Positions 532 to 49,100 of a stretch of DNA of 64,000 nucleotides are shown here, in pieces. The notes beneath the pieces are model-generated. The model ran no database searches. It saw only the letters and a program-made list of their open reading frames with translations, and was not told the origin of the DNA. Source of the DNA: Cucumis sativus (lineage: Eukaryota; Streptophyta; Magnoliopsida; Cucurbitales; Cucurbitaceae); NCBI RefSeq assembly GCF_000004075.3, contig NC_026655.2:15857489-15921488 (forward strand), given 5' to 3'. Position numbers and translations under genes: made by a program. Position 1 is the stretch's first letter, and each line of letters begins with the position of its first letter.

Positions 532-780
532 CGTTCTCAGCCCCCACCCCGCAGTGTCCTCTTCAGACTTAAATCAAATTAAATTAATGATTTCTAATTC
601 TCTCTCTTCCCTTTCTTCAAAGTTTAAGCTCAGCCACTACTGATTCCTTAACTCGTTTCATAAGTATGGAATGTACCAACAGGTTTATAGATTCTTCTGT
701 TGCCTGCTGATCCCTTTTTAGGTTTAGAATCAATGTTCAGGAAAAGGTAGGGATTGTGGAGGAAATTCTGGATTAAAAAA

Positions 781-3177
781 ATGAGTGTTACTTTGACTGT
801 AATGTCCTTTAATCTTCACGATGATCAACCACCGGAGAGTTCCAATTCATGGGAGAAGAGAAGGGATTTGTGTATCAGTGTCATCACTAGCTATTCTCCA
901 GCGATTCTCTGCACTCAACAAGGTATTTCCCTTTTCTTTTTACTGTTCTGCTACTCTACTTGTTTGATTCTGTCAATGCTTGCCGATCTTGATCTTGGGT
1001 GCGATTTTGTCGCAATAATTCATCTGGGTTTTTGTTTGTTCGAGTTTTTTTGGTGGGTTTTTGGTTCTGTTGGATTTCGTTTGAGTTTTTGAGCATGGGG
1101 CTGGGTTATTTTGTTAGAGAGCTTCAATTGAGTAGTGTGTACTTCTAGTGGAGCTTTCTCTTTTTGGGCTACCTTTAATGATTGAGTTCAATGCATTTGA
1201 TTGTCAAGAAATTGATGACCTCCTTCCATTTACCTCTCTGATTCCTTCATTTCTCTTTGTTAATGGGTTTAGGTGTGAAATCTCAGTTGGACTTTCTTCA
1301 GCAGGGCTTGCCTGGTATGTGCTGCTACTGAGATTGTTTGTAAACTTGTTGGCTTGTTATTGTTTATATGAGATTAAAAGGTTTCTTTTTCTATGTTCAA
1401 CAATGAATATGCGATTGTATGGATTAAAAATTTTAACATATTGGATGGCGAATAACTTCAATAAGCCTGTGATGCCAAAAAATTATGAGATTTTTCTATG
1501 ATACAAAGAAGTTTCTCGCTGATTGGCTACCTGGATGAAGAATTTGGTGAAGCTCAAATAAATAGATTTTTTTATGATTAATCTTCAATTGTGAATGAAA
1601 TAATTTTTGAGGAACTGGAACTTGACAAGATCAGTAACAACTTTTCATTAAGTTGGCAAGATCAGTAACAACTTGGAGTCTTGAGCAACGTAGGAAACTG
1701 ACTCATGATCAATGAATGCTTCAATTTGAGGTGGCAAATGCCTAAACTAAGACTGTCATTAGGAACTGGAACTTTCTTCCCCATACAAAACTGTGGAAGA
1801 GAAATGGGGTGAAGAAAGAAACAACCATGATACAACTTCCTATAATCATATAAGATATTTTCTTAGGTCTTAGCCTGTAATTTTGAAGTATTAAATATTT
1901 TGTAGGCTATGACCAATTTGGAATTTCAAGAAAAGGATCCCACGACGATTCAGATGAACACTGCACAATCTATTATGACAAGGAGAAGGTATCAGATCGT
2001 TTTCCCTTTGATTTAGCATGTGTTTTAATTCAAGTCTGATAAACTGGTGTGGTTTTTCTGCTTCACTGTCTCTTTCCTCTATTAAAAAGGTAGAGCTGTT
2101 AGAAGGTGGCACATTTTGGTTGTCGGAATCACCTTCTGTCCCAGGAAGCATGTCATGGGGTTCGATTGCTCCACATATAGCAACTTGGGCGATATCCTTG
2201 AGATTTTATTACAGATTCTCTTTCATTGCATTTTAACATATCCTTTTGCCTTTGTGTATATGGTGAAACTTCCGTTATTTGTTGACTTGACGTGATGCCC
2301 ACACATTCCAACTGAAAGGAGTTGAACCTCCTGGGTTCTCATTTCAGATAGTAAATACAAAGATGGACGAGCTCAACCCTCGTGCCCGTAGACGAAGTGC
2401 TTTGCTTACATGGCAGCACATTGCATCCTTACCTCCTAGCTTGCCAGTTATATACTGTGGAGGTTTCAACACAGAAAAGGAATCAACTACCGGTCGTTTT
2501 CTTCTTGGGAGATCCAGGTAATCGAAAAAAAAAGTGTATTCTAATTAGTAATTTTCAACCTGGGTAGTGTGTTCAATCCTATAGGTCCTCATTTGTGGCT
2601 AGGAGAAAGAAACTTTTTCTATCTTAATCAACCTTATTAGCTCACATAGTTCATTTATCTTAATCAGCTTGCGGAACACTTTAGATTTTGTATTCAGTTA
2701 CCAAACTCATTCTCTTTAACTCTAGATTGTTTTGTGGCTTCTCTTTCTTGTTGGCAGAGAAAAAGGTGCAGTGGGGGACATGAGAGATACGTGGGCGATT
2801 GCTCGGGCGAGGAAGAATGTTTCTCTTATTCGAACTTATCATGGTTTCAAAGGTATGAAATTTAGCTGAGCCAAAACTTGCTTAGGAGCCTGTTCGGCCT
2901 TTTCCAACTCTGCGAGTCACTTGTTTCAGGTGACAAACAGGGGGCTTTTGAATTTTTCAAGTTGATTCTTAGAGCACTTTGCCTTTGCTGGGATCGTCAG
3001 ACACAAGATCTACATGTAGATTGGATTCTTTTCAGAGGTAGATCTTTGATCCCTGTCCTGTGTGAAGTAGTGAATGATAACATCGATGGATTTTACCCGT
3101 CATCTCACTACCCTTTATTTGCCGAATTCATGCTTCCACGTACGGTGAGAATGCTTGAAACAACATCTCAAGAGTAA
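781..3177 (+). CDS. Endonuclease/exonuclease/phosphatase (DNase I-like) fold protein
   Basis: Seven coding exons (781-922, 1273-1314, 1906-1988, 2090-2191, 2303-2517, 2758-2852, 2930-3177) join in frame into 308 residues. The order of motifs matches the plant endonuclease/exonuclease/phosphatase family: MSFNLHDD near the N-terminus, LLTWQHIASLP, CGGFNTEKESTTGRFLLG, VSLIRTYHGFKG, DLHVDWILFRGR and SSHYPLFAEFMLPR near the C-terminus. Family members normally cleave phosphodiester bonds using Mg-binding Glu, GD-N and S-D-H motifs. Here those positions read TQQG, GGFN and SSHY, so catalysis is doubtful. Exon 2 is only 42 nt. The fourth intron (2192-2302) has AT-AC ends while the others are GT-AG. 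The ATG at 781 is chosen because the conserved N-terminal motif starts there; the reading frame is also open upstream of it. The biological role is not known to me. Confidence 0.85.
2192..2302 (+). other. Probable U12-type AT-AC intron
   Basis: This 111-nt intron begins ATATCCTT, the exact U12 AT-AC donor consensus, and ends CCCAC. Joining the flanking exons restores the conserved residues TWA-TFQLKGV in phase 0. No GT donor near the exon edge does this. A branch-site-like TGACTTGAC puts its adenosine at about 2290, 12 nt from the acceptor, within the usual U12 spacing. This was read directly and not checked against transcripts. Confidence 0.75.
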
Positions 3178-4305
3178 GACTTGATCACCATTTGTTATAA
3201 ACTCAGAATTCTCCATTTTTTGTCTGTTTAAGCTCCAAATGATCTATTTATTGATGTTAGAAGTAAATGAGCCGTAAGTTTTGTGTACTGTTTTACACTG
3301 TATAATAATCTTAAAATGAGACTTTTGAATTATTACTTAAAAATGGCCACAAGTGTTAGTTTGTTTATGAGAGAGTTCAAAGTTGTATCAAATTTTCTTC
3401 TACGGTAAGAAGTTTCAAGAATGTAGACAATCTGCTCAGGTTCATTTTCTCTTTACTGAAATGGCTTCGTCTTTATTTTTGAGGGGAGGGGTAAAGTATA
3501 AGTTTAAATTCATATTCATGAGGTTTAAAAAGGATGAGTCCACAAATGTTTTAATATTTTTATGTAATAATATATTCCTTTCATATTAAAAACAATTAAA
3601 AGGCAAGACCTTATAATAGATGCCAAAATTTTCGTTTTTGTAGGAGAAAAGAAAGTTGAAATTCAAAGACGTGTTAAACAAAAGTATTACGCACAAGTTT
3701 TGAATTAGGGTCGACAAATATGTCACTCATATTTATTATTTTTGTCCAAAAGGAAAGTGGTAAAAAAGATCAAACTTGCTTTTCTCCATGTTTGTTTTTA
3801 ATAATCTAACCTAAAATTAAAATTGGTGCCTAAACTAGCAATCAATTTTATCTGAAATACAAAAGGATTAAAATAAAAAATAGTACTTCAAATGCATATT
3901 AAATAAAAATTGTTGCTAAATTTGACAAAAGAAATGAATCACAAAAATGATTTTCTTAATACACATTTTATAAACAATAATTTTAGAGAAAAGAATGGAG
4001 TGGTGAATGTGCGCTTAACAGAAAATTAATCAGAAATCAATATGTTGATATTGCAATCTACACCGCACGTTATGGCAACAAAAGAAGATCCAACGGTTAT
4101 CAATCCCCAATGGCTGCACCGTCTTCTATAACTCCACACGGCTTCGGGCACGAACAGTAATTGATTCGTTTTCTTCTTCTTCTTCTTCGTGTAAGGTAAC
4201 GAAGAAACCACTAAAAGTAAGGGATTTACAGTCTCTGAAAGAGGTGTAAGAGATTTCTGAAGCAATTTTTGGATCTGGGTTGGCTTTAGATCTCTTGTTT
4301 AAGCC
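3178..4305. other. Intergenic spacer
   Basis: AT-rich DNA without a supported gene. The last 200-250 bp probably hold the promoter and 5'UTR of the downstream TM9 gene, including a TCT/CTT-rich tract around 4170-4190. Nothing else was recognised. Confidence 0.5.
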
Positions 4306-7126
4306 ATGGCGAGACGGCCTTTCGTGTTCCTTCTTTGGATCTTCGCATGTCTCTTCCTTTTCTTTCGTGCTTCCTGTTTCTATCTCCCCGGTGTGGCTCC
4401 CCAGGATTTTCATAAGGTTTGTTCAATTCCCATCTCGTTTTGAGTCAATCAAGCTTTGATTGAATCTCCATCGTTTTTCGTTCTTGGGTTTCAGATCTTG
4501 CGTTTGCGTGTGATTATTAAGCGTTAATGATTTTCTTGCTATTTGGGTGGTTTGAAAAAATGAGGAATTTCGTTTTCTTTTTGGTTTCTTCTCTGGTAAT
4601 GCTTGTCGGTTATTGAATTTTTCCCGAATCTGTATGATCTTTTTGAACTGGAAATGAAGTGTTAAAGGACTATGAAATTGAAAATGGGTTCGAAATTATC
4701 GAATTAAACGAGAAGATTACATGTTGTGTGATTCCTTTGAGTCTCTGTTCCTTGCAGTTGAATAAAATGAGATTTCATGTTTTTCTGTTGAATGGTAATG
4801 AAATTCAGCTTAGATGTCTAATTCTTTTACTGGTGCAGGGAGATCTTCTGAGGGTAAAAGTTAACAAATTGACTTCCATTAAGACTCAGCTTCCTTACTC
4901 CTATTATTCCCTCCCTTTTTGTCGTCCAAAGCAAATATTTGATAGTGCTGAGAATCTTGGAGAAGTTCTTCGTGGTGATCGTATAGAGAACTCTCCTTTT
5001 GAGGTATGCTATAAGGAACTTTCACAATCTTTTTTTTGCTTTCATTTTTTGTTATTTATTAACTTCTAAGAGAAATTGTCTTCGTTTCTCACAGTTTAAA
5101 ATGAGGGAACCGGAGATGTGTACTATTCTGTGCCGCATAGTTCTTGATGCTAAAATGGCGAAGGACTTTAAGGAAAAGATAGATGACGAGTATCGGGTGA
5201 ATATGTAAGTCATCCTTTTGAACGACTAGACATAATGATTTTGAACTTATGGATTGTTTTGATAACCTTCCTTGTCATATATATAGGATTCTGGACAATC
5301 TTCCTCTTGTTTTTCCCATACAAAGGACTGATCAGGAATCAGCAATTGTGTATCAACATGGTTTTCATGTTGGTCTCAGAGGACAGTATGCTGGGGTAAA
5401 TGAGGATATGTTTAGAATGTGGATAATTTGACATTTTTATGCATGTAATCTATATTCTAGATAGATAAATCAATATATGTGTTTAATTTTTGCAGAACAA
5501 AGAGGAAAGGCATTTTATCTATAACCACTTGACCTTCACGGTCAAGATTCACAAGGATCAGATAACCGAGTTGTCAAGGATTGTAGGATTTGAGGTCAAA
5601 CCATTCAGGTTCTATTACTGCTTTTCTTCTTCTAGTAGCATTTTTCTAGTCTCACTTTTAGATAGAAATTGCTCAGCTATATAATTTGGTTGGTATATTG
5701 TATGATTAGTGTGAAGCATACGTATGAAGATTCTTGGACTGAGAATACCCGCTTGACAACCTGTGATCCGCATGCAAAACGTTTGGTTACCAACTCTGAT
5801 ACTCCTCAAGAAGTTGAAGAGAAGAATGAAATCATCTTTACTTATGATGTCGAGTATCTGGTCAGTTGCCATACGCGTATATAGAATTTTACGTGCATCT
5901 CTTTATTGTCATGTGCAGGCTAATTTTTCCCCCTTCTCCCTCTAATTATCACTACTTCGATGTTTTAGGAAAGTAATGTGAAATGGGCATCTAGGTGGGA
6001 TACCTATCTTTTGATGGCTGATGATCAGATTCACTGGTTTTCAATAGTTAATTCCTTGATGATTGTTCTTTTCCTCTCGGGTATGGTGGCCATGATTATG
6101 TTGAGGACACTTTACCGTGATATTTCTAAATATAATCAGTTGGAGACCCAAGAAGAAGCTCAAGAAGAGACTGGTTGGAAACTGGTCCATGGTGATGTTT
6201 TCAGGCCTCCATTAAAATCCGATTTACTATGCGTGTACGTTGGTACAGGTGTTCAGTTTTTTGGCATGAGTCTTGTCACCATCATATTTGCTGCTCTTGG
6301 TTTCCTCTCCCCTTCAAACAGAGGGGGTTTAATGACTGCCATGCTCCTACTCTGGGTCTTCATGGGCATTTTTGCTGGCTACACTTCTGCTCGTCTATAT
6401 CGAATGTTTAAGGGAACAGAGTGGAAGAAAATCACACTGAAAACAGCTATCATGTTTCCTGCCACAATATTTTCCATTTTCTTTGTTTTGAATGCTTTAA
6501 TCTGGGGAGAAAAATCCTCTGGAGCAGTGCCATTTGGAACCATGTTTGCGCTAGTATTCTTATGGTTCTGTATCTCAGTTCCTCTTGTCTTCGTAGGCGG
6601 CTATCTTGGGTTTAAGAAGCCAGCAATTGAGGACCCTGTGAAGACTAACAAAATCCCAAGACAGATCCCAGAACAAGCTTGGTACATGAACCCTACATTC
6701 TCCGTTCTCATTGGAGGGATACTCCCTTTTGGGGCAGTCTTTATTGAGCTGTTTTTCATCCTTACCTCCATATGGTTGCACCAATTTTACTACATCTTTG
6801 GTTTCCTCTTCATTGTGTTCCTCATCCTGATAGTCACTTGCGCTGAGATCACAATTGTGCTCTGCTACTTCCAACTGTGCAGTGAGGACTACCATTGGTG
6901 GTGGAGATCATATCTGACTTCAGGCTCCTCTGCACTCTACCTCTTCCTCTATGCTGCCTTCTACTTCTTCACAAAGCTTGATATAACAAAGCCGGTGTCA
7001 GGGATGTTATACTTTGGGTATATGCTGATTGGTTCATACGCTTTCTTTGTCCTGACTGGTACAATTGGATTCTACGCATGTTTCTGGTTCACAAGACTCA
7101 TCTACTCCTCGGTGAAAATTGATTGA
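4306..7126 (+). CDS. Transmembrane nine (TM9SF/EMP70, plant TMN) family protein
   Basis: Seven exons (4306-4416, 4839-5003, 5095-5204, 5287-5395, 5496-5608, 5710-5860, 5969-7126) give 638 residues, the normal size for plant TMN proteins. Residues 1 to about 24 form a hydrophobic signal sequence followed by [11 protein letters not shown], the typical start of the mature lumenal domain. The lumenal domain carries [21 protein letters not shown] and HLTFTVKIH. The last exon alone encodes all nine membrane spans, starting with [17 protein letters not shown] and including the TGVQFFGM and [17 protein letters not shown] loops. The C-terminus ends in K-I-D, the KXD/E signal that keeps TM9 proteins in the Golgi. 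Known members act in endosome/Golgi sorting and cell adhesion. It resembles the TMN8-10 group; the exact paralogue is not resolved. Confidence 0.95.
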
Positions 7127-8894
7127 TTTAATGGAGAAATGTTAAATACTTTTGAAGTTTTTGTTCATGTAGCAAAGGAGGAAGAAGAGGGTCACTCCGG
7201 GTTAGGAAAAGACAGACAACATTCTCCTGGAAATTGTTTGGATTTAGAAGCGGCTTTTTCAGTTTTTCTTTTTGTCTTTTTCTTTTGAATCTTTCTTAGT
7301 ACAGGGTGTTTTGGAGATTCCAGTTATTACTTTCTTGTTTGTTATGTTCTTTTACTGCTGAATAGGAGACTTGGAGAGAGAATTGTAAGCAACAAAACAG
7401 TTCCGTTGTAGTACTCCCCTTGTTCTGATAGTAATGGAGGAAACAAAAAATCATGTGCTTCACTCTGCTTACTCTTTCCTTTATATATATTTCACGGTTT
7501 GAACTATGTTCAACATTTTTCCTTGCTTCTTTCGTCATGTTTATATAGAATCAATAATCTACCTAATCTTTGATTTAGTCTGTTTGGAATGATTTTCAAT
7601 AAAATGAATGGTTGGAAATTGTCCGATTTGCCTTCAATACAGGTTCTGATATGATCTCTCTGTATTGTATGTATTTATGTATCTTGTAAAGAGGGTATAA
7701 TATTTGCATGTAGATTCATTTCATAAAAGCAAAAATATAAAATTCTCACATTAAACCTAAATGGAGAATTATATAAATCAATAAATCTGGACATTATTAA
7801 AAAGTTTAACCATTTGTTTAAAATCTTCTACATAAAGTCTAAAAGTCAGTTTCACCTTAGATTTGAACACAGTTCACAAATGGAATGAGAGTTATATCTC
7901 AAACTATGTAATATAACTTTGAAGTGTCCGGAAACATGACGAGAGTATAATCAAAGGTGTAAAGATAGCATGTTTATTACGCCGTTTTAATAGTTGTAAA
8001 AAGGTTGTCATGATACTTGGCTTATATTCATTTCTTTGAAAAAAAAGTTTAAGAACATGACGTACATGTGGTGAGGTGATTGATTTTAAGTATTATATCC
8101 TCGAACCTCCTCTTATCTTAAGTTATTTTAACACTTTTAAGTTATAAAATAACAATTTTTGCTAATTTTTCAACTAAAATGAGGATGAAAAATGTGACTT
8201 AATAGGAGGGGAAACAAACATTTTAAGGATTAAGTATGGAAGGAGGATAAAAAAAGTTGGAGACTTTTATCTCACAATTTATTGACAAAAACCACTTTAT
8301 TTGTTGTTATGCTAACTTCCACAAACCACTCTTTACTAAACTTTTCTCTTTGCACAAATTTCTTCTAAACGTTTGGCTTTTCATAGTGAAATGAGTTTGT
8401 TGGTTTCTATCTTTGCATGGTTTTTTCCGCAATCCATAACGTACTCCTTTCCATTAAAACTCTATTTCTTGAACTTATGTCAACTTCCTTACCAATGAAA
8501 CCATTTTTACTGTGATTAATGTCAAAGTCAATCTAATTCTGCTTCACAAGTTACATGTTAAAGAATCAATAGAAACCATTTCTTTTATTTTATTCTTTTT
8601 GTAAAAGATCTTCACAGTTCAATTCATCATTCAACAAAAGTAGAAGTGTAATGAAAATTTCTCTACTTTAAAACATGTATAACTAGGAGAAAAAAGTTAC
8701 ATAATTTAACATAAAAACCTATTACATATCATCGTATAAAAAGGTGAAAATAATAAAAACAAACGGAAAGATTCAAAAATAAAAGAATCTCTCTTTTTGT
8801 TTAGATGGACTTTCTAACTGTTCATAAATATTTTTCTTTTACTTGTACACATTTATTTTAAACCGTTAGAAAGACAATTCAAACACGTTTTAGT
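7127..8894. other. 3'UTR and gene-free spacer
   Basis: The first few hundred bases are probably the 3'UTR of the TM9 gene. The rest is AT-rich spacer with no open frame that looks coding and no recognised repeat. Confidence 0.45.
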
Positions 8895-37422: not shown

Positions 37423-38974
37423 TTAATGAAATTTGTCAATCCAAGTTCTGAGTTTGTGACATTAAGATCAGTTTAGGAGTAACAAAAGCTATGGATGAAA
37501 AAACAATTGAAAGTTTTTTTTCCTTCCAGGAAACAGGAACTGTCAAGAGGAAATTACAAATGATGAAGCAAAAGAAGATGAGCCTAATAGCAGAAGTCAG
37601 GTATAATCTTCATATTATTACTTTTTATTTTTGTTGATCTTCACAAGGAGTAAGTGAATTGTTTAGAACTAAATAAGAGTCTATGTTTATGTTGAAGATT
37701 CTTAAGGAAGAGATGTGAGTACTTAATGAAGAACCAACCATCAACAAAAGAGACCATTATTCAAATGGAGAGACAGTGCAGCAGAAGCAATTGAAAAATC
37801 AAGTGGCTAACAATAATAAGGAGAAGAATGGTGGTAGAAGAAGAACTGCTTTGAAACCGATCCCGACCATCTCAGATATAAACCAAAAGGAAAGAATCGA
37901 TATGCCTCTGCAGAATTCTACTCCAATTCCTGTTCTTGACTTAAACCAGAAGGCAAAGACTTCTTCTAGGAAGAAAGCCAGTCAACATAACTCGACCCCG
38001 GTTTTCGACTTGAACCAGAAGGAAAGAATGTGCAGTGGGAGAGATGCTAGCGAGAGAAACATCACTCCATTTTTTGACTTGAACCAAATTTCGGTAACTG
38101 ATAGGAACTTATGATAGCTAAACTCTACAAATGTAATTTTTCACTACAATCTTGACCACCCCCCTTCCTAACAATCTCTATATTTATTTTGGTTCAGATA
38201 GAGGAAGAGGAATTGCAGACCCATTACGAGCCGCTGAGAGTTGATGAGCTGAAGAAAAGCCTTCTTCGAGGAGGGAACGATGAGCAGCAAAACGATATCA
38301 AGATTTCTGCATGCAGGAGTATTGGAGATGGTCCAAGTCGAGCTGGTAAAAGAAAAATTTCATGGCAAGATCAGGTAGCTTTAAGGGTTTGAGCTCATTG
38401 TAATCTCTAGTGTCACTTGGAACAATACCATATGGGTGATGGGGTTGAGGCATTTCCTTTGCCTGAAAGCCACCAAGGTTGATTGTAGTAATTCCTTCTC
38501 TGATTCTGTATTTTTCTATGTAAAGGGAAAGTAAAGTAGTTTTTGTACATGCTAATACATTTAAAAAGAATGATGATGAGATATGGAGAAGAATCAAAAT
38601 GGCAATTATTCAATCTTTTGTCTACTTTTGGCTTGTAAGTTATCCGAATCCTTCAATCCTTCACAACTTTTTCTCTACTCTAGATGGTACATCTTTAACT
38701 GTAACAATAGCTGAAAAAGGAAATTGGATTTGTTCTTAAAAAGCTGTACTGCTAATTCTTTCTGCAAACCAAATTGTCATTTTATAAGAAGAAAAGATAG
38801 AAAAGAATACTAAGTTGAATCCATATGCTAACGGCCTTTTTAGGATTTAATATCTATGAATTCTTTTAACACAAAGGATCAAGAAATGAAAACTAAAAGT
38901 TGGATTTGGATCTATGTAACAAAAATGTTAATGATAATGAGAATCTCAATTGATAGTAGGAGAAATATAAAAGT
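37423..38974 (+). repeat. Segmental duplication, unit B
   Basis: Direct repeat of 33003-34633, offset by 4420 bp. It has a few percent scattered differences, a deletion of about 100 bp near 38875 and an insertion of roughly 20-35 bp near 38645-38680. The unit begins inside the first intron of the parental gene, so exon 1 was not copied. Confidence 0.9.
37530..38392 (+). pseudogene. 5'-truncated, frameshifted copy of the DLNQ-repeat gene
   Basis: Counterparts of exons 2 (37530-37600), 3 (37698-38093) and 4 (38198-38392) keep their splice sites and the same C-terminus. Exon 1 is absent: no equivalent of the 35-residue start lies upstream. In exon 3 the copy has AAAAGAGACC where the parent has AAAAGACC, a 2-nt gain that shifts the frame and brings a TGA at 37792-37794. 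Downstream codons remain well conserved, so the duplication is young. A product could arise only from a new internal start. Read directly by comparing both copies. Confidence 0.8.
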
Positions 38975-39046
38975 TTATGAATTACAGGAAGAAACTTTAT
39001 GATTATCTAGTTACTAAAATGAACGATATTGCTCCCAATTTGGCAT

Positions 39047-39256
39047 TTAAAATATATTAGTAAAAGGGTTATGGCAGATATCTTGAATACCATTGCAGTA
39101 ACATCTTTCGCAACAGGATATCCCTCGTTTTTTGCATCCACATAGTGGAGAATCGCATAGAGTTTGAACGCATTGGCAGCAATACATTTCTTCTTGAAGC
39201 TCCGGGGGGCCTTGATCTTCTACCTGTGGATTTGACTGTTGCTGTTGTTGCTCCAT
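39047..39256 (-). CDS. Small CXC-like cysteine-rich ORF
   Basis: A 69-residue minus-strand frame begins MEQQQQQSNPQVEDQGPPEL and continues into CCQCVQTLCDSPLCGCKKR and GISCCERCYCNGIQDICHNP. From the second Cys the spacing is C-x-C-x4-C-x4-C-x-C-x6-C-x3-C-x-C-x6-C, matching the Tesmin/TSO1 CXC module except for a longer last gap. CXC domains bind DNA with zinc in CPP transcription factors and occur in some transposon proteins. This ORF has only one module and no partner, so it may be a lone exon, an element fragment or a microprotein. Expression is unknown. The overlapping frame at 39069-39281 is probably a shadow. Confidence 0.45.
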   Translation of the reverse strand: MEQQQQQSNPQVEDQGPPELQEEMYCCQCVQTLCDSPLCGCKKRGISCCERCYCNGIQDICHNPFTNIF

Positions 39257-39355
39257 TTCTTGAAGGATTAACTACCAACACTTTTGAATATAGTTAGTAG
39301 TTTTGAAAGTATTTAATAAACATGGTTCATTTTTTAAACTATTTTTAAAAAAAAA

Positions 39356-39384
39356 GGGGGGGGGGGGGGGGGGGGGGGGGGGGG
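39356..39384. repeat. Homopolymer of 29 G
   Basis: Nine A (39347-39355) run directly into 29 consecutive G. Such a G run is rare in plant DNA. It could be a real slippage tract or a sequencing/assembly artefact; the sequence alone cannot decide. Confidence 0.9.
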
Positions 39385-39696
39385 TGTGATTGTTCCAACA
39401 GCAGCTTGAAAGAAGAAGAGGGTAGTAAAAGTTGACTTCTCTCTACTAGGATATTCATTCAAAGGAAAAGAAAGTACAGAAAGATACAGGAACGATCACC
39501 ATCTTCTTCATTCTCCCTTTATCATAACATCATCCACAAATTCCCATATGAGCATGCATTTCAACTTGCTGTTATAGAGCAATATGTTCTGAAAACGCTC
39601 TATTCGACTGCAATGTAGCAGAAATGAACACAAAAAATGAGGTCAACAATTTATCAAGTTCACTGCACTTTTGCCCTTCGGAACTTATCTTGCACT

Positions 39697-40463
39697 TTAC
39701 TGCACTGTTGCAGCAGTTGATGGGAAAAACCTCATAAGAAAACTTGAGAGAGACCAGATACAGATTATCCCAAGACATTGAAGAACATTCAACAGTGTAC
39801 CGAGAGAGCTGTTTATTGCCAAGTTATTTGGAGTCATTTCAGCTCCTTTTATGGTAAATGAAAGTGTTGTCACCAGTTGAGCTGTTATGTTAAGTTGATG
39901 CAATCTATAAACCTGTTTAATAGGAACTCTTCAAATCAAACGCCATGACATCGATGATTGAGTAAAATATTATTAAGGGCATGTAAATGTAGTCGAGGGG
40001 AATGATAGACTAATATATGGCTTTTTCTCCATAGAATAACTAAATGAAGCAAGTACAACATGGATGGGCAAGACAACAAAAGATGTGGAGAGAGAATGAT
40101 CATAGATGAATATTCTTACTTGAAAGACAATTTGAATAACAGGCCATGAACATGATTTCTTGCATCGTGCATACTGTTCAAATGCAAATTGGACAACAAT
40201 CCCAACAAGGTAAGGTGCTAGTTTTGCAGATGCTGCAGGGCCGGTCCATGGCCACACTAATCCCATGGTGACCATTGGTATTATTAAACTGAGTGCTAAG
40301 GTAGCTACAGAAGAGATCCCCCGTCCAAATTGATTAGACAGGGTTTGATAACTGTTTTTCAAAGTGTCAGATTCAGCAGTTCTCCTTGAACGATCAATTA
40401 AAAAAAGAAACACAGCAACACCACAATAGAACAGTGCATCCGTGAAGAATAATACAAGGAAAT
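39697..40463 (-). CDS. 3' exons of a plant membrane protein of unknown function (5' part not found)
   Basis: Two minus-strand exons join cleanly: 40463-40120 (acceptor TTGCAG, donor CAA/GTAAGA) and 39912-39697 (acceptor AAACAG, stop TAA). Together they give 185 residues beginning with DFLVLFFTDALFYCGVAVFL, a membrane span, then SRRTAESDTLKNSYQTLSNQ, a second hydrophobic region, PAASAKLAPYLVGIVVQFAF, the basic stretch EQYARCKKSCSWP and a last span before RFFPSTAATVQ. I recall similar uncharacterised plant proteins but no function. The first exon here starts in mid-codon, so one or more 5' exons must lie upstream (above 40463). The inverted copia structure begins 266 bp away and no 5' exon was found between them or just beyond. 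The gene is either split by the insertion or broken. Confidence 0.6.
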
Positions 40464-40728
40464 CTGCAATCAGAAGATAATTCGTAGTTTACAATAGAGA
40501 ATTTTGAACGGAAACTAAAAGATTCCAGCAGAATCTAAGTCTCGAAAGTAAATATTTAACATGAGAGAACAAATTTCATATTTAACAGAATATGAAACTT
40601 ATGAGGAACTATTTCTGATCTAAGAGCTCCCTTATGCCTTCAATCGCCATTGTTGATAAGGGACATGTTGACACACAGTAAAGATTACTTAATATATATG
40701 AAAATATTAACGTGGTTAAGAGATAAAG

Positions 40729-40968
40729 TGTTGGAATTCTTTCCTTTTTTTCTAGGCTTTTTCCTTGTTAGAATCCTAGAATAATTATGGAAAGATTATG
40801 GGAATGTATTCCTTATTTTCCTTTTTTATTCCATTGTGTACTCTATTTATTCTCTCATGTACCTATTGTTTTATTCATTAGAAAATAATAACAACAAACA
40901 ATCGTGGTTTTTCTCCCGGTACTCGGGTTTTCACGTAAATTGGTGTGAACTCGTTGTCTCTCTTTTCA
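40729..40968 (+). repeat. 5' LTR of the left half-element
   Basis: 240 bp from TG to CA. It is followed after two bases by the TGGTATCAGAGC primer site at 40972-40983. The opposite-strand copy is at 44402-44654. Confidence 0.75.
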
Positions 40969-42558
40969 ATATGGTATCAGAGCGGGACAATGAAAACACC
41001 CTAGAAACCCAAAAAAACCAAACCACGGATGAAAATCAAACAGAAGGGACAGCCATCAATTTTAGTGCTGCCGTAGTTGCTGCCATCGATGCTCGGATGA
41101 GTGCTGCCATGGACGAATTATTAAGCCGGCTACAGAAAACGTCAGAAAATAATTTTTCGTCATTACCGCAGTCGTCCGCGCCGTCACCGTACCACCACGC
41201 GCCTGGTTTTCTTCCTCAGACGGCGTCGACCATCCTGTCCAACCCTTTTCTTCGTCCGCGGCCTATATTGCTCCCCACGCCCTGATTTATGTTCTGCCAT
41301 CTAATTCCAATCGACTACCACCGCTTCTGCCGTCAAATTTGTATGGCCAGCCACCCAATGATCCTAGCTACCATCCCGATGTTAAAAACTCTCAAATTCA
41401 CTAAACATTTGAGGTTGGTGAATCTTCGGCATATTCCAACCGTAACGTGCAAGCTTCCTCGGGAATAGTTCATCAACAATTGGAAGGGCTTCGACAACAG
41501 ATAGCAGCACTTGAGGCTACCTTAGGGACGACATCCACTCTACCGATGTATTCTGAGAATCCGGTAAACTCGTTCCCTAATGTATCCTCTCCTTATGTGA
41601 CTAATACGGTGGCTCAGTCTTCCATGTATCATCTTTCAGGAGAAAAGTTGAATGGCAACAACTATTTCTCATGGTCTCAGTCAGTAAAGATGGTCCTCGA
41701 AGGACGACAAAAATTTAGCTTTCTGACAGGGGAAATACCTCGCCCCCTACCGGGCGACCCACATGAACGATATTGGAAGGCAGAAGACTCTATTCTTCGA
41801 TCCATATTGATCAATAGTATGGAACCTCAAATTGGCAAGCCGTTATTGTTTGCTGCAACAGCCAAGGATATTTGGGACACAGCCCAGACACTTTACTCAA
41901 AACGTCAGAATGCCTCTCGTCTATACACGCTGAGAAAGCAAGTTCATGAATGCAAGCAAGGAACCATGGATGTCACATCCTTTTTCAATAAGCTTTCTCT
42001 TATATGGCAAGAAATGGACCTATGCAGAGAACTAGTCTGGCGTGATCCCACTGATGGTGTACAGTACTCGAGAATTGAAGAGAATGACAGGATTTATGAC
42101 TTTCTTGCTGGTCTTAATCCTAAGTTTGATGTAGTTCGAGGGCGTATACTAGGTCAAAGACCGATTCCCTCCCTGATGGAAGTTTGCTCTGAAATCCGCC
42201 TCGAGGAAGATCGCACAAGTGCTATGAATATTTCCGCAACCCCTACTATTGACTCTGCTGCTTTTAGTGCAAGATCTTCTAACAGTAGCAGTGACAAGCA
42301 TAATGGAAAACCAATTCCTGTCTGCGAGCATTGCAAAAAACAATGGCATACCAAAGAACAATGTTGGAAGTTACATGGTCGTCCCCCAGGAAGTAAGAAA
42401 CGCCCTTCCAACGACAAACAGAACACAGGGCGGGCGTATGTGAGTGAGTCTGCTGAACCTCCTCAACAAACCGATCCACACAAAAACCAAACTGATCTCA
42501 GTCTTGCCACTTTAGGTGCCATTGTCCAATCAGGTATACCTCATTCCTTCGGTCTTGT
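40729..42558 (+). mobile_element. Ty1/copia 5' half (LTR, primer site, gag), left arm of the palindrome
   Basis: Starts with an LTR (TGTTGGAATTC...TTTTCA), then AT and the primer-binding site TGGTATCAGAGC, complementary to the plant initiator tRNA-Met end. A gag-like frame follows: YHLSGEKLNGNNYFSWSQSV, a retrotrans_gag-type region, and a CCHC-type knuckle CEHCKKQWHTKEQC. Compared with the right arm, this gag is broken by a 4-bp loss near 41235 and a stop near 41403. The element is cut off at about 42558, just before the protease region, where the sequence switches to the opposite strand of the second half-element. Confidence 0.85.
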
Positions 42559-44654
42559 TTGGGCACATGCAAAACATTATGTAAGGAGAGCCCTGCACAA
42601 GGAGAAATCTTCCCTTTTCCAACAATGGGGGCCAAGGAGCCATCTGCAATTCTAATTGTCTCGTTCCCAGCACAAGGAATGTAAGATACAAAATGTTCAA
42701 AGGACCCAGTCAAATGATCTGTGGCACCAGAATCCAGAATCCAGGGGTTCTTCCCATCAATACTAACAAGACCGAAGGAATGAGGTATACCTGATTGGAC
42801 AATGGCACCTAAAGTGGCAATACTGAGATCAATTTGGTTTTTGTATCGATCGGATTGTTGAGGAGGTTCAGCAGACTCACTCACATACGCCCGCCCTGTG
42901 TTTTGTTTGTCGTTGGAAGGGCGTTTCTTACTTCCTGGGGGACGACCATGTAACTTCCAACATTGTTCTTTGGTATGCCATTGTTTTTTGCAATGCTCGC
43001 AGACAGGAATTGGTTTTCCATTATGCTTGTCACTGCTACTGTTAGAAGATCTTGCACTAAAAGCAGCAGAGTCAATAGTAGGAGTTGCGGAAATATTCAT
43101 AACACTTGTGCGATCTTCCTCGAGGCGGATTTCAGAGCAAACTTCCATCAGGGAGGGAATCGGTCTTTGACCTAGTATACGCCCTCGAACTACATCAAAC
43201 TTAGGATTAAGACCGGCAAGAAAGTCATAAATCCTGTCATTCTCTTCAATTCTCGAGTACTATACACCATCAGTGGGATCACGCCAGACTAGTTCTCTGC
43301 ATAGGTCCATTTCTTGCCATATAAGAGAAAGCTTATTGAAAAAGGATGTGACATCCATGGTTCCTTGCTTGCATTCATGAACTTGCTTTCTCAGCGTGTA
43401 TAGACGAGAGGCATTCTGACGTTTTGAGTAAAGTGTCTGGGCTGTGTCCCAAATATCCTTGGCTGTTGCAGCAAACAATAACGGCTTGCCAATTTGAGGT
43501 TCCATACTATTGATCAATATGGATCGAAGAATAGAGTCTTCTGCCTTCCAATATCGTTCATGTGGGTCGCCCGGTAGGGGGCGAGGTATTTCCCCTGTCA
43601 GAAAGCTAAATTTTTGTCGTCCTTCGAGGACCATCTTTACTGACTGAGACCATGAGAAATAGTTGTTGTCATTCAACTTTTCTCCTAAAAGATGATACAT
43701 GGAAGACTGGGCCACCGTATTAGTCACATAAGGAGATGATACATTAGGGAACGAGTTTACCGGATTCTCAAAATACATCGGTAGAGTGGATGTCGTCCCT
43801 AAGGTAGCCTCAAGTGCTGCTATCTGTTGTCGAAGCCCTTCCAACTGTTGATGAACTATTCCCGAGGAAGCTTGCACGTTACGGTTGGAATATGCCGAAG
43901 ATTCACCAACCTCAAATGTTGAGTGAATTTGAGAGTTATTAACATCGGGATGGTAGCTAGGATCATTGGGTGGCTGGCCATACAGATTTGACGGCAGAAG
44001 CGGTGGTAGCCGATTGGAATTAGATGGCAGAACATAAATCGGGGTGTGGGGAGCAATATAGGCCGCGGATGAAGAAAAGGGTTGGACAGATGGGATGGTC
44101 GGCGCCGTCTGAGGAAGAAAACCAGGCGCGTGGTGGTCCGACGGAGGCGCGTGGTGGTCTGGTGGCGGCGCGTTGTGGTCTGGTGGCGGCGCGGACGACT
44201 GCGGTAATGACGAAAAATTATTTTCGGACGTTTTCTGTAGCCGGCTTAATAATTCGTCCATGGCAGCACTCATCCGAACATCGATGGCAGCAGCTACGGC
44301 AGCACTAAAATTGATGGTTGTTCCTTCTGTTTGATTTTCATAAGTAGTTTGGTTTTTTTGGGTTTCTAGTGTGTTTTCATTGTCCCGTTCTGATACCATA
44401 TTAAAAAAGAGACAACGAGTTCACACCGATTTACATGGAAACCCGAGTATCGGGAGAAAAACCACGATTGTTTGTGTTGTTATTATTTTCTAATGAATAA
44501 AGCAATAGGTACAAGGGAGAATAAATAGAGTACACAATGGAATAAAAAAGGAAAAGATTTAGGAAAATAAGGAATACATTCTCATAATCTTTCCATAATT
44601 ATTCTAGTATTCTAACAAGGAAAAAGCCTAGAAAAAAAGGAAAGAATTCCAATA
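42559..44654 (-). mobile_element. Ty1/copia 5' half, right arm of the palindrome plus spacer
   Basis: On the minus strand this is a second copy of the same element: LTR (44654-44402), primer site, gag from 44399 and the start of the protease region (NPWILDSGATDHLTGS, then GLSLHNVLHVPKQ), ending at the junction near 42559. Positions 42765-44654 pair with the left arm; 42559-42764 are present only here and form the hairpin loop. Its gag frame is better kept, with an in-frame stop near 43258, and has an extra proline-rich PPPDHxAP repeat (about 44120-44190) absent from the left arm. No integrase, reverse transcriptase or 3' LTR is present, so the structure cannot be autonomous. Confidence 0.85.
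44402..44654 (-). repeat. 5' LTR of the right half-element (inverted)
   Basis: About 253 bp, an inverted match to 40729-40968. Its outer end reads TATTGGAATTC where the left copy has TGTTGGAATTC. The flanking 5-mers of the whole structure (TAAAG on the left, AAAAT on the right) do not match, so no clear target-site duplication was seen. Confidence 0.7.
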
Positions 44655-44924
44655 AAAATAAAAGCACAGAGCCCATTAAATCAAATGATATCTTTAAGAA
44701 GACAGTGAACATTTATAGATCATATAGCACAATGAGAGAATACCAAGTTCAATATCAAAAAATTATCATACCATAACCATCTTATTACTTAGTAAACATC
44801 AGTTCAAACTAATAGTAATAGTAATAGCAGATTTCTCACAATAAAGTACACCATCAAAATATAAAATAAAAAGATAGCAAATAAAATAAAACAATAAGTA
44901 AAACAGAAGGTGATGTAACTTGGG

Positions 44925-45006
44925 GTGGCAGAACATGGGCGATCCGTTCGTTGAGGTGAACGGGTTTAGTGTGAAACAGGCTTTCGATGAGAAGAAATCC
45001 TGTTGG
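44925..45006. other. GC-richer, coding-like islet of unknown identity
   Basis: About 80 bp stand out from the AT-rich flanks. The minus strand reads LLIESLFHTKPVHLNERIAH and the plus strand reads MGDPFVEVNGFSVKQAFDEK, both open. Neither matches a family I know. It could be a lost exon, for example of the gene at 39697-40463, or a gene fragment. A 20-bp direct repeat, TTTTAAATCACACAACTTTT, follows at about 45008 and 45063. Confidence 0.2.
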
Positions 45007-45308
45007 ACTTTTAAATCACACAACTTTTTATACTTTTGTCCACGTATATATTTTCATATTTTCTTTTAAATCACACAACTTTTTGAATAAAAAAGTTTTA
45101 ATAGGTTATAAAGACAGTATAACAATGATGTTGTTAAATGGAATAATAAATTATTAAAGCAATTAATTTATATAATTTGTGTTGTTGATGGTTTGGTGTT
45201 CATGAATATGGGAAAGAAGAGGATGATATCATTCAAACCCAAATAAACTTCAAAAAAATTATAAATCTAATTGAATCCTGTTTCTTTACATAAATTGCTA
45301 ACAAAGTT

Positions 45309-46535
45309 TTAAATTTGTGTTCCTTCCAAAATTTGAGACAGACGACCAAAATTCAAGGATTCTATTTGACAAATATATCTCTTCTTCTTTTGATTCTTTG
45401 ATATGATCCTCTTCTTCTTACTTGAAGGATTATAGAAGCAAAAGAAGTCCATATTGATCATAAATAATATTTCTTCGTCTTCAAACATTTTGATGAGCTG
45501 AAGGTGTATCCATTCCCTTGATATATCACAAATAACAAATTTTCTAACCCATGAATCTTTCTCTTGCATCCTCCAAACTTGAATTGTCCTGCTATCTTTT
45601 TCCCAATTGATATGAAAAGTTGCATAAATGGTACCATTAAATTGATGTATCTTACCATATCCGTTAGAGGGAACTTGCAAGACAACAGTCATTTCAATAT
45701 GTTCAGTTTCAACATCAAGAGCATATATGACATACTTTTTCTCTTTATCTTTACCTTTTTCTTTTACCAACCAATAGATGATTCCATTCAAGTAAACACC
45801 ATCCGCAACAATCTCAAAAGGGAGGGTGTGAAGACGCCTCCATTGGTTATGAATAGGGATACTGTGGTTGGTTCCACTTCTACCAAAAGTCAGAACTTCC
45901 ATTGTATAGTGGGTGTCAACCGTACTAGATGTCCTCCTACATCTAAATCCTTTGTCGAAAACTCTGAATAATTTGTATTGTTTTGTAATAGGGCTGAAAC
46001 CAAATCCATAGAGATAAAAATCATCAAAAGTACCATGCTCCGAAACCTGTAGGAACTCATTGGTCATGGGATTGAATATGCCTTGACACCAAGTGTAATC
46101 ACTACATTTCGAAATAAGCATCAAACCATTACATGAACCTGCCATTATGATCGTATAGGTCCAATCACCATCAAATTGCAACGAGGCTGATTTAATAAAT
46201 TCCGATTCCAGATCAAAATCAAAATCATTCGAAAGTTGTCTGGTATCAAGATTGATACAATGCATTTTGGGATTGCATAATTTATAATTGAGCCCCCGGT
46301 CAGAGGTGGAGAGAAGGAAAGCGTTCTTCAGGAATTGTAACTGAGTAGAGGAGGCGTAATCTAAAACCAAATCATTCCAAGTATTAGAAACCAACCTGCA
46401 AGAGGGCAAATCGGAGATTACGAGTTTGGAGAAGATTGTTTTAGCAATGAGTGGCGGTAGCCCTTTACCGCAGTTAATAGTCATCCTCCTCTCACTTATT
46501 TCCATATTCTCAATCTGTCTTTCCATATCCTCCAT
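45309..46535 (-). CDS. F-box protein with an F-box-associated (FBA-type) domain
   Basis: A single-exon gene of 408 residues. Residues about 24-65 form the F-box (LPPLIAKTIFSKLVISDLPS, then CRLVSNTWNDLV), which would bind the SKP1 subunit of an SCF ubiquitin ligase. Downstream, AGSCNGLMLI, GIFNPMTNEFLQV, YGFGFSPITKQYKLFRVF and LNGIIYWLV are the repeated motifs of the plant F-box-associated domain thought to select substrates. Length and lack of introns are typical for this fast-evolving family. The substrate cannot be inferred. The start at 46535 is followed by two further in-frame ATGs within 11 codons, so the exact start is uncertain. Confidence 0.88.
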   Translation of the reverse strand: MEDMERQIENMEISERRMTINCGKGLPPLIAKTIFSKLVISDLPSCRLVSNTWNDLVLDYASSTQLQFLKNAFLLSTSDRGLNYKLCNPKMHCINLDTRQLSNDFDFDLESEFIKSASLQFDGDWTYTIIMAGSCNGLMLISKCSDYTWCQGIFNPMTNEFLQVSEHGTFDDFYLYGFGFSPITKQYKLFRVFDKGFRCRRTSSTVDTHYTMEVLTFGRSGTNHSIPIHNQWRRLHTLPFEIVADGVYLNGIIYWLVKEKGKDKEKKYVIYALDVETEHIEMTVVLQVPSNGYGKIHQFNGTIYATFHINWEKDSRTIQVWRMQEKDSWVRKFVICDISREWIHLQLIKMFEDEEILFMINMDFFCFYNPSSKKKRIISKNQKKKRYICQIESLNFGRLSQILEGTQI

Positions 46536-47927
46536 TTGTTAGAACCTCTTCGTATGGGAAAGATTAATCGAATAATGTAAGGGTTTGAAAAACCTAAAAT
46601 ATATATATACTTGTGTGAAATACCAATTACCTTTTTCATCTAGGATTTGGATTTTTTGCCTTTCTAAATTTTAAAACAATATTATATTGGAAATTATATT
46701 TAATAAACGAATCAAAAGAAAAGGAATCTTAGTTTTTTTTATTAAAAAAATGATAATCATGGTTATTCTTTAAAAAAAGCAGTCATATAAAAATGAATTA
46801 TAAAATTTCCGTATAAAATATAATTCTTGTTTTTTAAGAAAAAATATAGTATTGTTTTCTAGGAACAATATTTTTTTGTTAAATATATATTTTTACAATA
46901 TTTGGTCCATTGATCCTAACGTTAAAATCTTTTATGCAATAAAACAACTTCTTCATCATTTCTGGTTAGCAATTTATGTAAAATAATTCAATAATACATA
47001 TATGTATTCTTTTTTATGTTTTGTGGTTTTTTCTTTTTGCGTATATATATCAATACATACACATTATATATCTATTCAGTATTTTTTTTATTTCTTACAT
47101 ATATACTATTAAATAATTCATTTATGTTTTATGATTTTTAAATATATACTTGGCATATATTCAATAATACACATATTTTTTATCTTCAAATTTTGTAATT
47201 TTTTCTTACTGTATTTATATTTATATACCACTTTATATATAGATTATGTATCTCATCAAAAAAAAATTTCAATTTTTACTACTGCATAATATATATATAT
47301 ATATATATATATTAATTATATGATTTGTTATGTATGTACTACTTCATATATTCAATAATGCATAAATAATGATATCTTCAATATACTAAATATACCCTAA
47401 TATATTTCGAATATAGAATATAAATTTTTGTTAATCTAGCAGTTAGCCACCGAGGTTCTTTTTCCTCACCGTTTATACTTTCAATCTTCTATTATTGGTG
47501 TCTTTAATAAAGAAAGTGAATAAAAAATTCAACCTATTTGAAGAATGAAACTTTTACTATTTTCTTTTATAAAAAATTATAAACTATAACCCACATCCCT
47601 AATTTCTCTCCTTGTTGGTCTACATTTTATAAATAAATTGATATAAAAATATTTCATTTATAAAATATACACTATTCGATATATATCATACTTAAGTGGA
47701 ATATATGTGCAAAATAAAATAAAGAATTGACGGAGTGAGATTAGAAAGTGTGAGAGATCTAGAGGGAAGATATTTTGAAAAAATTAACCAAAATAAAAAT
47801 AATTAAGGAAAAATTTTATTATAATATTACTATAATAAAATTAATTCATTTACCAAATTTATCTAGAATATCTGATAAATACAAATATTAATCGTGATCG
47901 AGTGTGCTCTTTCTTTTTTTCTATTTT
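46536..47927. other. AT-rich gene-free spacer
   Basis: About 1.4 kb of very AT-rich DNA with a (TA)n tract at 47288-47312 and repeated ATATAT words. No gene seen. Confidence 0.5.
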
Positions 47928-49100
47928 TTAATATATTATAGAAAAATTAGTTAAATCTAGGATATTTAGATCAAAATTAGCTTTTTTTTTTTTCTGAACG
48001 ACTAGATTTTTATCTATGTTGTTCACTGGGTGGTCTAATTTTTCTTTATGATCTTCTTCCCTTTGGTTGGGTTCCTCACGAGTTGTTTGTACTTGGGTAC
48101 GACCCTCTTTGGCATTGTGTTTCTTCCCATTTATGTGGGCATTGAAGCTAATTTCACTTGTGGCCTTAACATTGCACATACTACAAACAAACCCGTCTTT
48201 TGCTAATTTCTTTGAACCAATCCAAGGAGATGGAATGATGGTTTGACTTTGATCTCTTTCACCCCGCCCTCCTATTGTTGCTGTTGCTTCTTGATATCCC
48301 TCTGCTTTTCTCTTCCCGATAAATTTTCCCGAGTCTGGCCTCTCCTCCAGTTTCCATGTTCCACATGTGAACTTTCAAATACACCGTCCCCAAATTTTGC
48401 CAAGTGTCGCTTAATGGATTTTCTAAGTTTTCGATATTGTGTTTAATAGATTCTAAACAGAGTTAAATTTTGAAAAATAATTAGTACATTCAGTGACATC
48501 TACCTCAAGTGCTATCGAAGATGGTGTTAAATATAAATTTTACATGAATTTGTAAGACATAAAATTAAAAAATATCTAACAAGTTAAAGAATTTACTTAC
48601 TACACAAGTTTATATATACTTATTTGATATTGCTAGTTCAGTAGCTTCCTATATAGAGAATTAAAAAGTTTGATTTTTCTTCCCGTTTATGGCATAAATC
48701 GTATAAACACAGCTATTTCACAAGTGTAGACATAAACAGCATTTGTTCAATCACATCGTTAATAGTGTGGAATAAGTTTAGTTTGAGCGTAAGAAAATAT
48801 TTATTTTACTACAATATTTTCTAAAGTGTTTATTTTTCGGATCGTTATCTCTTCTTTGATCCGTTGTTTCCAGAGCTCCTCCTTTAGAGAATCATCTGAA
48901 GTGATTACAATAAAAAGCTTATAAGCAACTGGTTGAATAATCGAAATGGAGGCTGGAGGGAATGTTTGTGTAATAGGATCTGAAGGTAAAACAAAGATTA
49001 ACATTTCGATTAAGCTTAAGTTACCTTGAAGCGGTTGATGGGAGGTGGAAGCGGCGGTGGCCGGTGATTTGTTATCTATTGCTCGGAACGTGAAATTCAT
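47928..49100 (-). CDS. U1/matrin-type zinc-finger protein, probably eroded
   Basis: Two coding regions seem to belong together. The first (49100-49025) reads MNFTFRAIDNKSPAT and ends at a good donor, CAAG/GTAACT. The last (about 48371-47928) contains GKFIGKRKAEGYQE and CSMCNVKATSEISF followed by NAHINGKKHNAK: C-x2-C-x12-H-x5-H, the U1/matrin-type C2H2 finger that binds RNA or dsRNA. A middle exon with SLKEELWKQRIKEEITI lies near 48840-48895. Plant relatives I recall have MEFxFRA, a charged helix and one or two such fingers. Here only one finger is left and the C-terminal 50 residues are unrelated-looking, so the gene may be truncated or degenerate. Middle exon borders are unresolved. Confidence 0.5.

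Follow-up and report, generated by a model that had tools for sequence, protein, structure and literature searches.

Plant LTR retrotransposons degrade by illegitimate recombination that makes use of short stretches of homology. The locus described here lies in a window of 64,000 nucleotides from cucumber (Cucumis sativus, contig NC_026655.2, positions 15,857,489 to 15,921,488; all coordinates without a contig name count from the first base of this window). It resembles such deletion-degraded LTR elements in being truncated, in having a few bp of homology at its junction and in having lost host DNA, but differs from them in that its deletion appears to join two opposite copies, leaving a remnant that looks palindromic.

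Two further systems share this inverted arrangement. According to the excerpted text of PMC3440606, Mu killer of maize is a partial inverted transposon duplication and the proposed source of a long hairpin RNA. As far as that excerpt goes, the cucumber pair is like Mu killer in being a partial inverted duplication of a transposon and unlike it in that the maize locus silences a DNA transposon, as tests have shown, whereas the pair described here belongs to an LTR element and is known from sequence alone. The covered portion of PMC11624286 reports an antisense nested insertion of EVD in an Arabidopsis rdr6 line, points to tandem insertions, head to head or tail to tail, as one conceivable origin of LTR hairpins and gives no assay of siRNA production at the EVD locus either. 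Going by the same portion, both loci hold two opposite copies of one LTR element from which dsRNA would be possible in principle, but one EVD copy sits inside the other, whereas the cucumber copies appear to be side-by-side insertions trimmed to their 5' halves. A literature search of partial coverage turned up nothing on exactly such an arrangement, which is not a claim that it is unpublished.

Structure of the pair and its parent family

Positions 40729-44654 of the window consist of two 5' halves of one copia-type LTR retrotransposon that are joined tail to tail. Element positions refer to L014, a 5.5-kb copy with two LTRs from the same genome, and the segments of both elements were placed by BLAST against this reference as follows:

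40729-42559, plus strand: left arm, comprising 5' LTR, primer-binding-site-like stretch and copia-type gag; element positions 1-1849
42557-44654, minus strand: right element, arm and loop together; element positions 2057-1
42765-44654, minus strand: right arm, from a different copy than the left one and with the same three parts (5' LTR, primer-binding-site-like stretch, gag); element positions 1-1849
42560-42764, minus strand: loop of 205 bp, part of the right element only; element positions about 1850-2057
42557-42559, no strand: putative deletion junction, 3 bp common to both parent sequences and seen as the overlap of the BLAST segments

The near-palindrome proposed in the earlier note, which had been made from the letters of the sequence, is real: inverted repeats in register pair 40731-42559 with 42765-44652 (six pairs). 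Its description of the arms as near-identical holds for the inner 1.3 kb, with 98% identity, but is too generous for the outer part at 89-96%, and its 206-bp loop does belong to the right copy but is one base shorter than given. Both outer ends are 5' LTR starts as it had stated, reading TGTTGG on the left and TATTGG on the right, and a check of the arms for breakpoint homology, which it had suggested, yields the 3-bp overlap at the junction. Within 38001-48000, no further element part gives a match longer than 100 bp to the reference (E 1e-10), the sole other rows being the two 5' LTRs that match its 3' LTR, and the reported absence of the 3' part is thereby borne out. The 5-bp sequences at the outer ends (TAAAG left versus AAAAT right) show no matching duplication, in agreement with the remark that clear target-site duplications were not found. 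Both arms score above the Pfam cut-off for PF14223 and PF14244 (copia gag), and the right element has a Pol_BBD match in the loop part of its minus-strand reading; each arm also has a stretch that resembles a primer-binding site. When a 501-bp query of the junction was searched against the genome, only the window's own sequence spanned the junction among the 81 matches listed (best 40 of 237 candidates scored).

The search of the genome for the family (226.6 Mb in 88 contigs; 939 loose candidates, best 40 scored) also uncovered the full-length parent that the earlier note had expected, in the form of two-LTR copies of about 5.5 kb such as the reference. Copies with both LTRs are present in 7 of the 20 loci examined; five of these copies are about 5.5 kb long while the other two (L022 and L023) are internally deleted, and the family LTR, with CAATA at its end, measures about 257 bp. 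Exact target-site duplications of 5 bp flank five of these seven copies, the one at L022 matches at four of five bases, and L012 has no match. Since the LTR pairs differ at just 0 to 12 of about 255 positions, most two-LTR copies are probably young. Judging by the gag domains in both arms and by the LTRs and target-site duplications of the complete copies, we classify both arms as a Ty1/copia-type LTR retrotransposon. As a side observation, the two-LTR copy without a target duplication (C2:15703000-15711000) is flanked by fragments that are about 78-85% like the family.

Host flanks and ancestry of the arms

The host DNA on either side of the pair belongs to a single duplicated segment:

39388-40727, minus strand: left host flank, a duplicated gene fragment with exon-like readings, 93-95% identical to C1:~827-828.6 kb
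44655-44801, minus strand: right host flank, the same duplicated segment resumed, about 803 bp further on in the paralogue than where the left flank ends

The empty site, which the earlier note had proposed to seek in relatives, was found as a paralogue in the same genome at C1:~0.83 Mb, with collinear boundaries at the LTR ends. This stretch, C1:818500-829345 (L039 and L034), is a duplicate of the window's host DNA and matches 39388-40588 at 95.5% and 40584-40727 at 93% identity; the exon reading of the left flank, which has only three hits in the genome, matches C1:827555-827845 at 94%. On the left, homology ends at 40727, two bases before the LTR start at 40729 (base 40728 differs), and on the right, it restarts at 44655, the first base past the LTR, with 92.5% identity over 147 bp; the matches of the two flanks to the paralogue share one strand and keep their order. 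Of the five bases next to each LTR, all are identical in the paralogue on the right (AAAAT) and all but one on the left (TAAAG). No part of the reference element matches the paralogous stretch, which on these alignments serves as the empty site.

Between the two boundary points, the paralogue holds 803 bp (L039 7788-8590) that are absent from the window, among them a 67-aa exon-like reading. In the whole genome, this reading hits just the paralogue itself and, weakly (27%, E 0.2), a site on C3. This site is on the same strand as the match on C3 to the next exon and about 320 bp upstream of it. A loss from the window is for this reason more likely than a gain by the paralogue, and the exon, as far as one weak match can tell, was probably ancestral and lost in the window. 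The host gene reading matched 0 Pfam families.

Several other features were recorded in the surrounding DNA. The host fragment 39388-44801 lies in the opposite orientation on its contig relative to the related C1 region near 0.827 Mb. At 40584-40588, the window lacks 146 bp of the paralogue (L039 8734-8879) with a 5-bp overlap, possibly a second small deletion. An exon-like reading at 44913-45006 (beginning MGDPFVEVNGF) matches the paralogue at 86% over 94 bp, but 6.4 kb further on, and the genome contains five matches to this reading at E up to 10; in view of these matches and this displacement, we left it out of the collinear segment. The product of a 408-aa open frame on the minus strand at 45309-46535 resembles, by eye, an F-box protein.

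Compared directly, the two arms differ by 50 substitutions over 1830 aligned positions and by several indels. In an alignment of 37 rows, nine left-only and 12 right-only variants were found in at least one other row, and no variant was common to both arms and other rows. The length of a repeat stretch in gag, measurable in 29 of the 37 rows (its end motifs were not found in the other eight), sets the left arm (140) apart from the right arm (186); among the right arm's four best genome matches, it is 186 in L024, L026 and L028 and 207 in L048. Over the same 1830 columns of the 37 rows, the left arm carries eight private substitutions and the right arm 21 (binomial p = 0.024), a difference that had been stronger with 24 rows (9 and 25) and became weaker once rows were added. 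Among 200 bootstrap trees built from 24 rows, the arms came out as sisters in 0%, the tree being mostly unresolved with 17 of its 21 inner branches open. By plain distance, L016 and L048, both near the family majority, are among the nearest rows of both arms, and different ancestry is for this reason based on the unshared variants and the repeat length. Together with the modest difference in divergence, these show that the arms derive from different copies. Gene conversion between the arms had been considered as a cause of the identical inner part and was dropped: from alignment column 600 on, the other 20 rows depart from the majority at a median of 0 to 0.5 positions in every 150 columns, and because this stretch is nearly invariant across the family, no conversion is needed. 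In this alignment, the close similarity of the inner parts is characteristic of the family.

Origin of the pair

We favor an origin by two independent insertions in opposite orientation, about 0.8 kb apart, that were joined by one later deletion, and put the probability of this reading at about 0.88. Two copies of one low-divergence copia-type family would have inserted independently into a duplicated gene fragment, and a single deletion would then have joined the inner parts of both copies. Lost with it would be the 3' part and the 3' LTR of each copy together with about 803 bp of host DNA, in total about 7.9 kb provided that both copies were full length. The 3 bp of shared junction sequence are as expected of microhomology-mediated end joining, and the outer ends would not match because each outer LTR keeps one half of its own target duplication. 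Each outer end adjoins a separate site of one collinear target, with the target DNA between them lost, as judged by comparison with a paralogue. Close opposite pairs do occur in this family, for example a head-to-head pair on C1 (L010, C1:11698500-11708000) with LTR starts 2.2 kb apart. Against the two-insertion reading, the right-flank homology is only 147 bp long, and both arms end within 208 bp of the same element position, a slight coincidence if the two breakpoints were random. What the sequences show is the structure itself, the separate ancestry of the two arms, the collinear boundaries of the empty site where the LTRs end and the homology at the junction; the order of events, the full length of both copies before the deletion and the repair pathway are parts of this account that we infer. 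The most likely effect of the deletion would be only the loss of the host exon and of the mobility of both elements. Among the three origins that the earlier note had offered, the empty-site paralogue and the ancestry of the arms thus favor two insertions followed by a deletion and speak against self-integration and template switching.

A single event could also explain in one step the two different source copies, the outer 5' ends, the lack of a matching duplication and the loss of 803 bp, if the 5' ends of two co-packaged cDNAs made half-site integrations about 0.8 kb apart and their broken inner ends were joined to each other while the intervening DNA was lost. This would require two aberrant integrations simultaneously, however, and it predicts equal divergence since insertion where we observed 8 versus 21 private substitutions, a departure that is modest at p = 0.024. 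We consider such an event unlikely in itself and less likely than two insertions and a deletion.

Integration of one palindromic cDNA, formed by self-integration, template switching or a hairpin intermediate, is very improbable. It would explain why both outer ends are LTR ends and why the arms are in register, and switching between two co-packaged RNAs could even yield different arms; in the portion of PMC11044480 covered, autointegration appears only in the reference list. One integration, however, predicts a matching 5-bp duplication, whereas the outer ends read differently, and an intact target, whereas about 803 bp are missing relative to the paralogue. The arms also have no shared variants and differ in repeat length (140 versus 186), and a cDNA made from one molecule would have given them one ancestry and one age, which is not what was found.

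Mis-assembly of two repeat copies, conceivable in a family with so many copies (939 loose candidates, best 40 scored), is hardly probable, given host flanks that run collinear with the paralogue as far as the LTR ends and a left exon reading with just three hits in the genome. Least probable of all is an inversion breakpoint between two distant copies, which would likewise give tail-to-tail 5' halves of two different copies and came to mind on account of an exon-like minus-strand reading in the left flank and a start-like plus-strand reading in the right flank, but which we rejected as a single paralogous locus contains the matches to both flanks, 803 bp apart, in unchanged order and on one strand.

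Other paired copies and hairpin potential

A second tail-to-tail pair of 5' halves of the same copia family lies on C7 (L009, C7:9260500-9270000, at 2074-7233) and consists of element positions 1-2272, 36 bp, and then 3338-2710 and 2191-1 on the opposite strand. Its outer ends show no matching target duplication, and about 30 of the 36 bp at its joint are, by eye, an inverted copy of the element sequence beside the break. The left flank and left arm of this pair recur at 99% identity about 47 kb away (L044, C7:9214500-9223500, at 757-5673), where a longer arm reaching position 4313 is joined to inverted 4631-4065. This layout suggests that the shorter C7 pair arose by loss from the middle of a longer pair, and the longer copy looks like a sister stage of the same locus. 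Unlike the window's arms, those of the shorter C7 pair share three variants that otherwise occur only in the longer one (37 rows); partial conversion or related source copies could lie behind them. In a search for its empty site, the left flank matched C1 at 88% up to a point 5 to 8 bp short of the LTR start, and the right flank was found to be a repeat (116 candidates).

Both LTRs of the window's pair face inward, the longest perfect match between its arms is 406 bp, and 1033 of the 1811 21-mers of the left arm are also present in the right arm. When the distinct 21-mers shared by both arms were compared with 32 copies chosen from the best genome matches, with the arms of the two C7 loci left out, a median of 93% (range 41-99%) was found exactly in another copy. 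The pair therefore has the long inverted duplication matching other family copies that is a feature of Mu killer-type loci, and a hairpin formed by read-through RNA and serving as a source of siRNAs, as the earlier note had envisaged, is structurally possible. It would be a much stronger proposition that the pair is a natural hairpin locus, transcribed from its inward LTR promoters or by read-through, with siRNAs that silence the family in trans, and that tail-to-tail pairs, including the one on C7, are recurring self-limiting products of copia bursts; we give this only a slim chance, and from what its sequence offers, a function of the pair is unlikely.

An origin by ordinary genome turnover is well supported and requires no function. 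If siRNAs were made, the pair would be a natural counterpart of Mu killer built from an LTR element. In either case, a palindrome of retrotransposon 5' halves as striking as this one can arise by ordinary insertion and deletion, as the empty site in the same genome supports.
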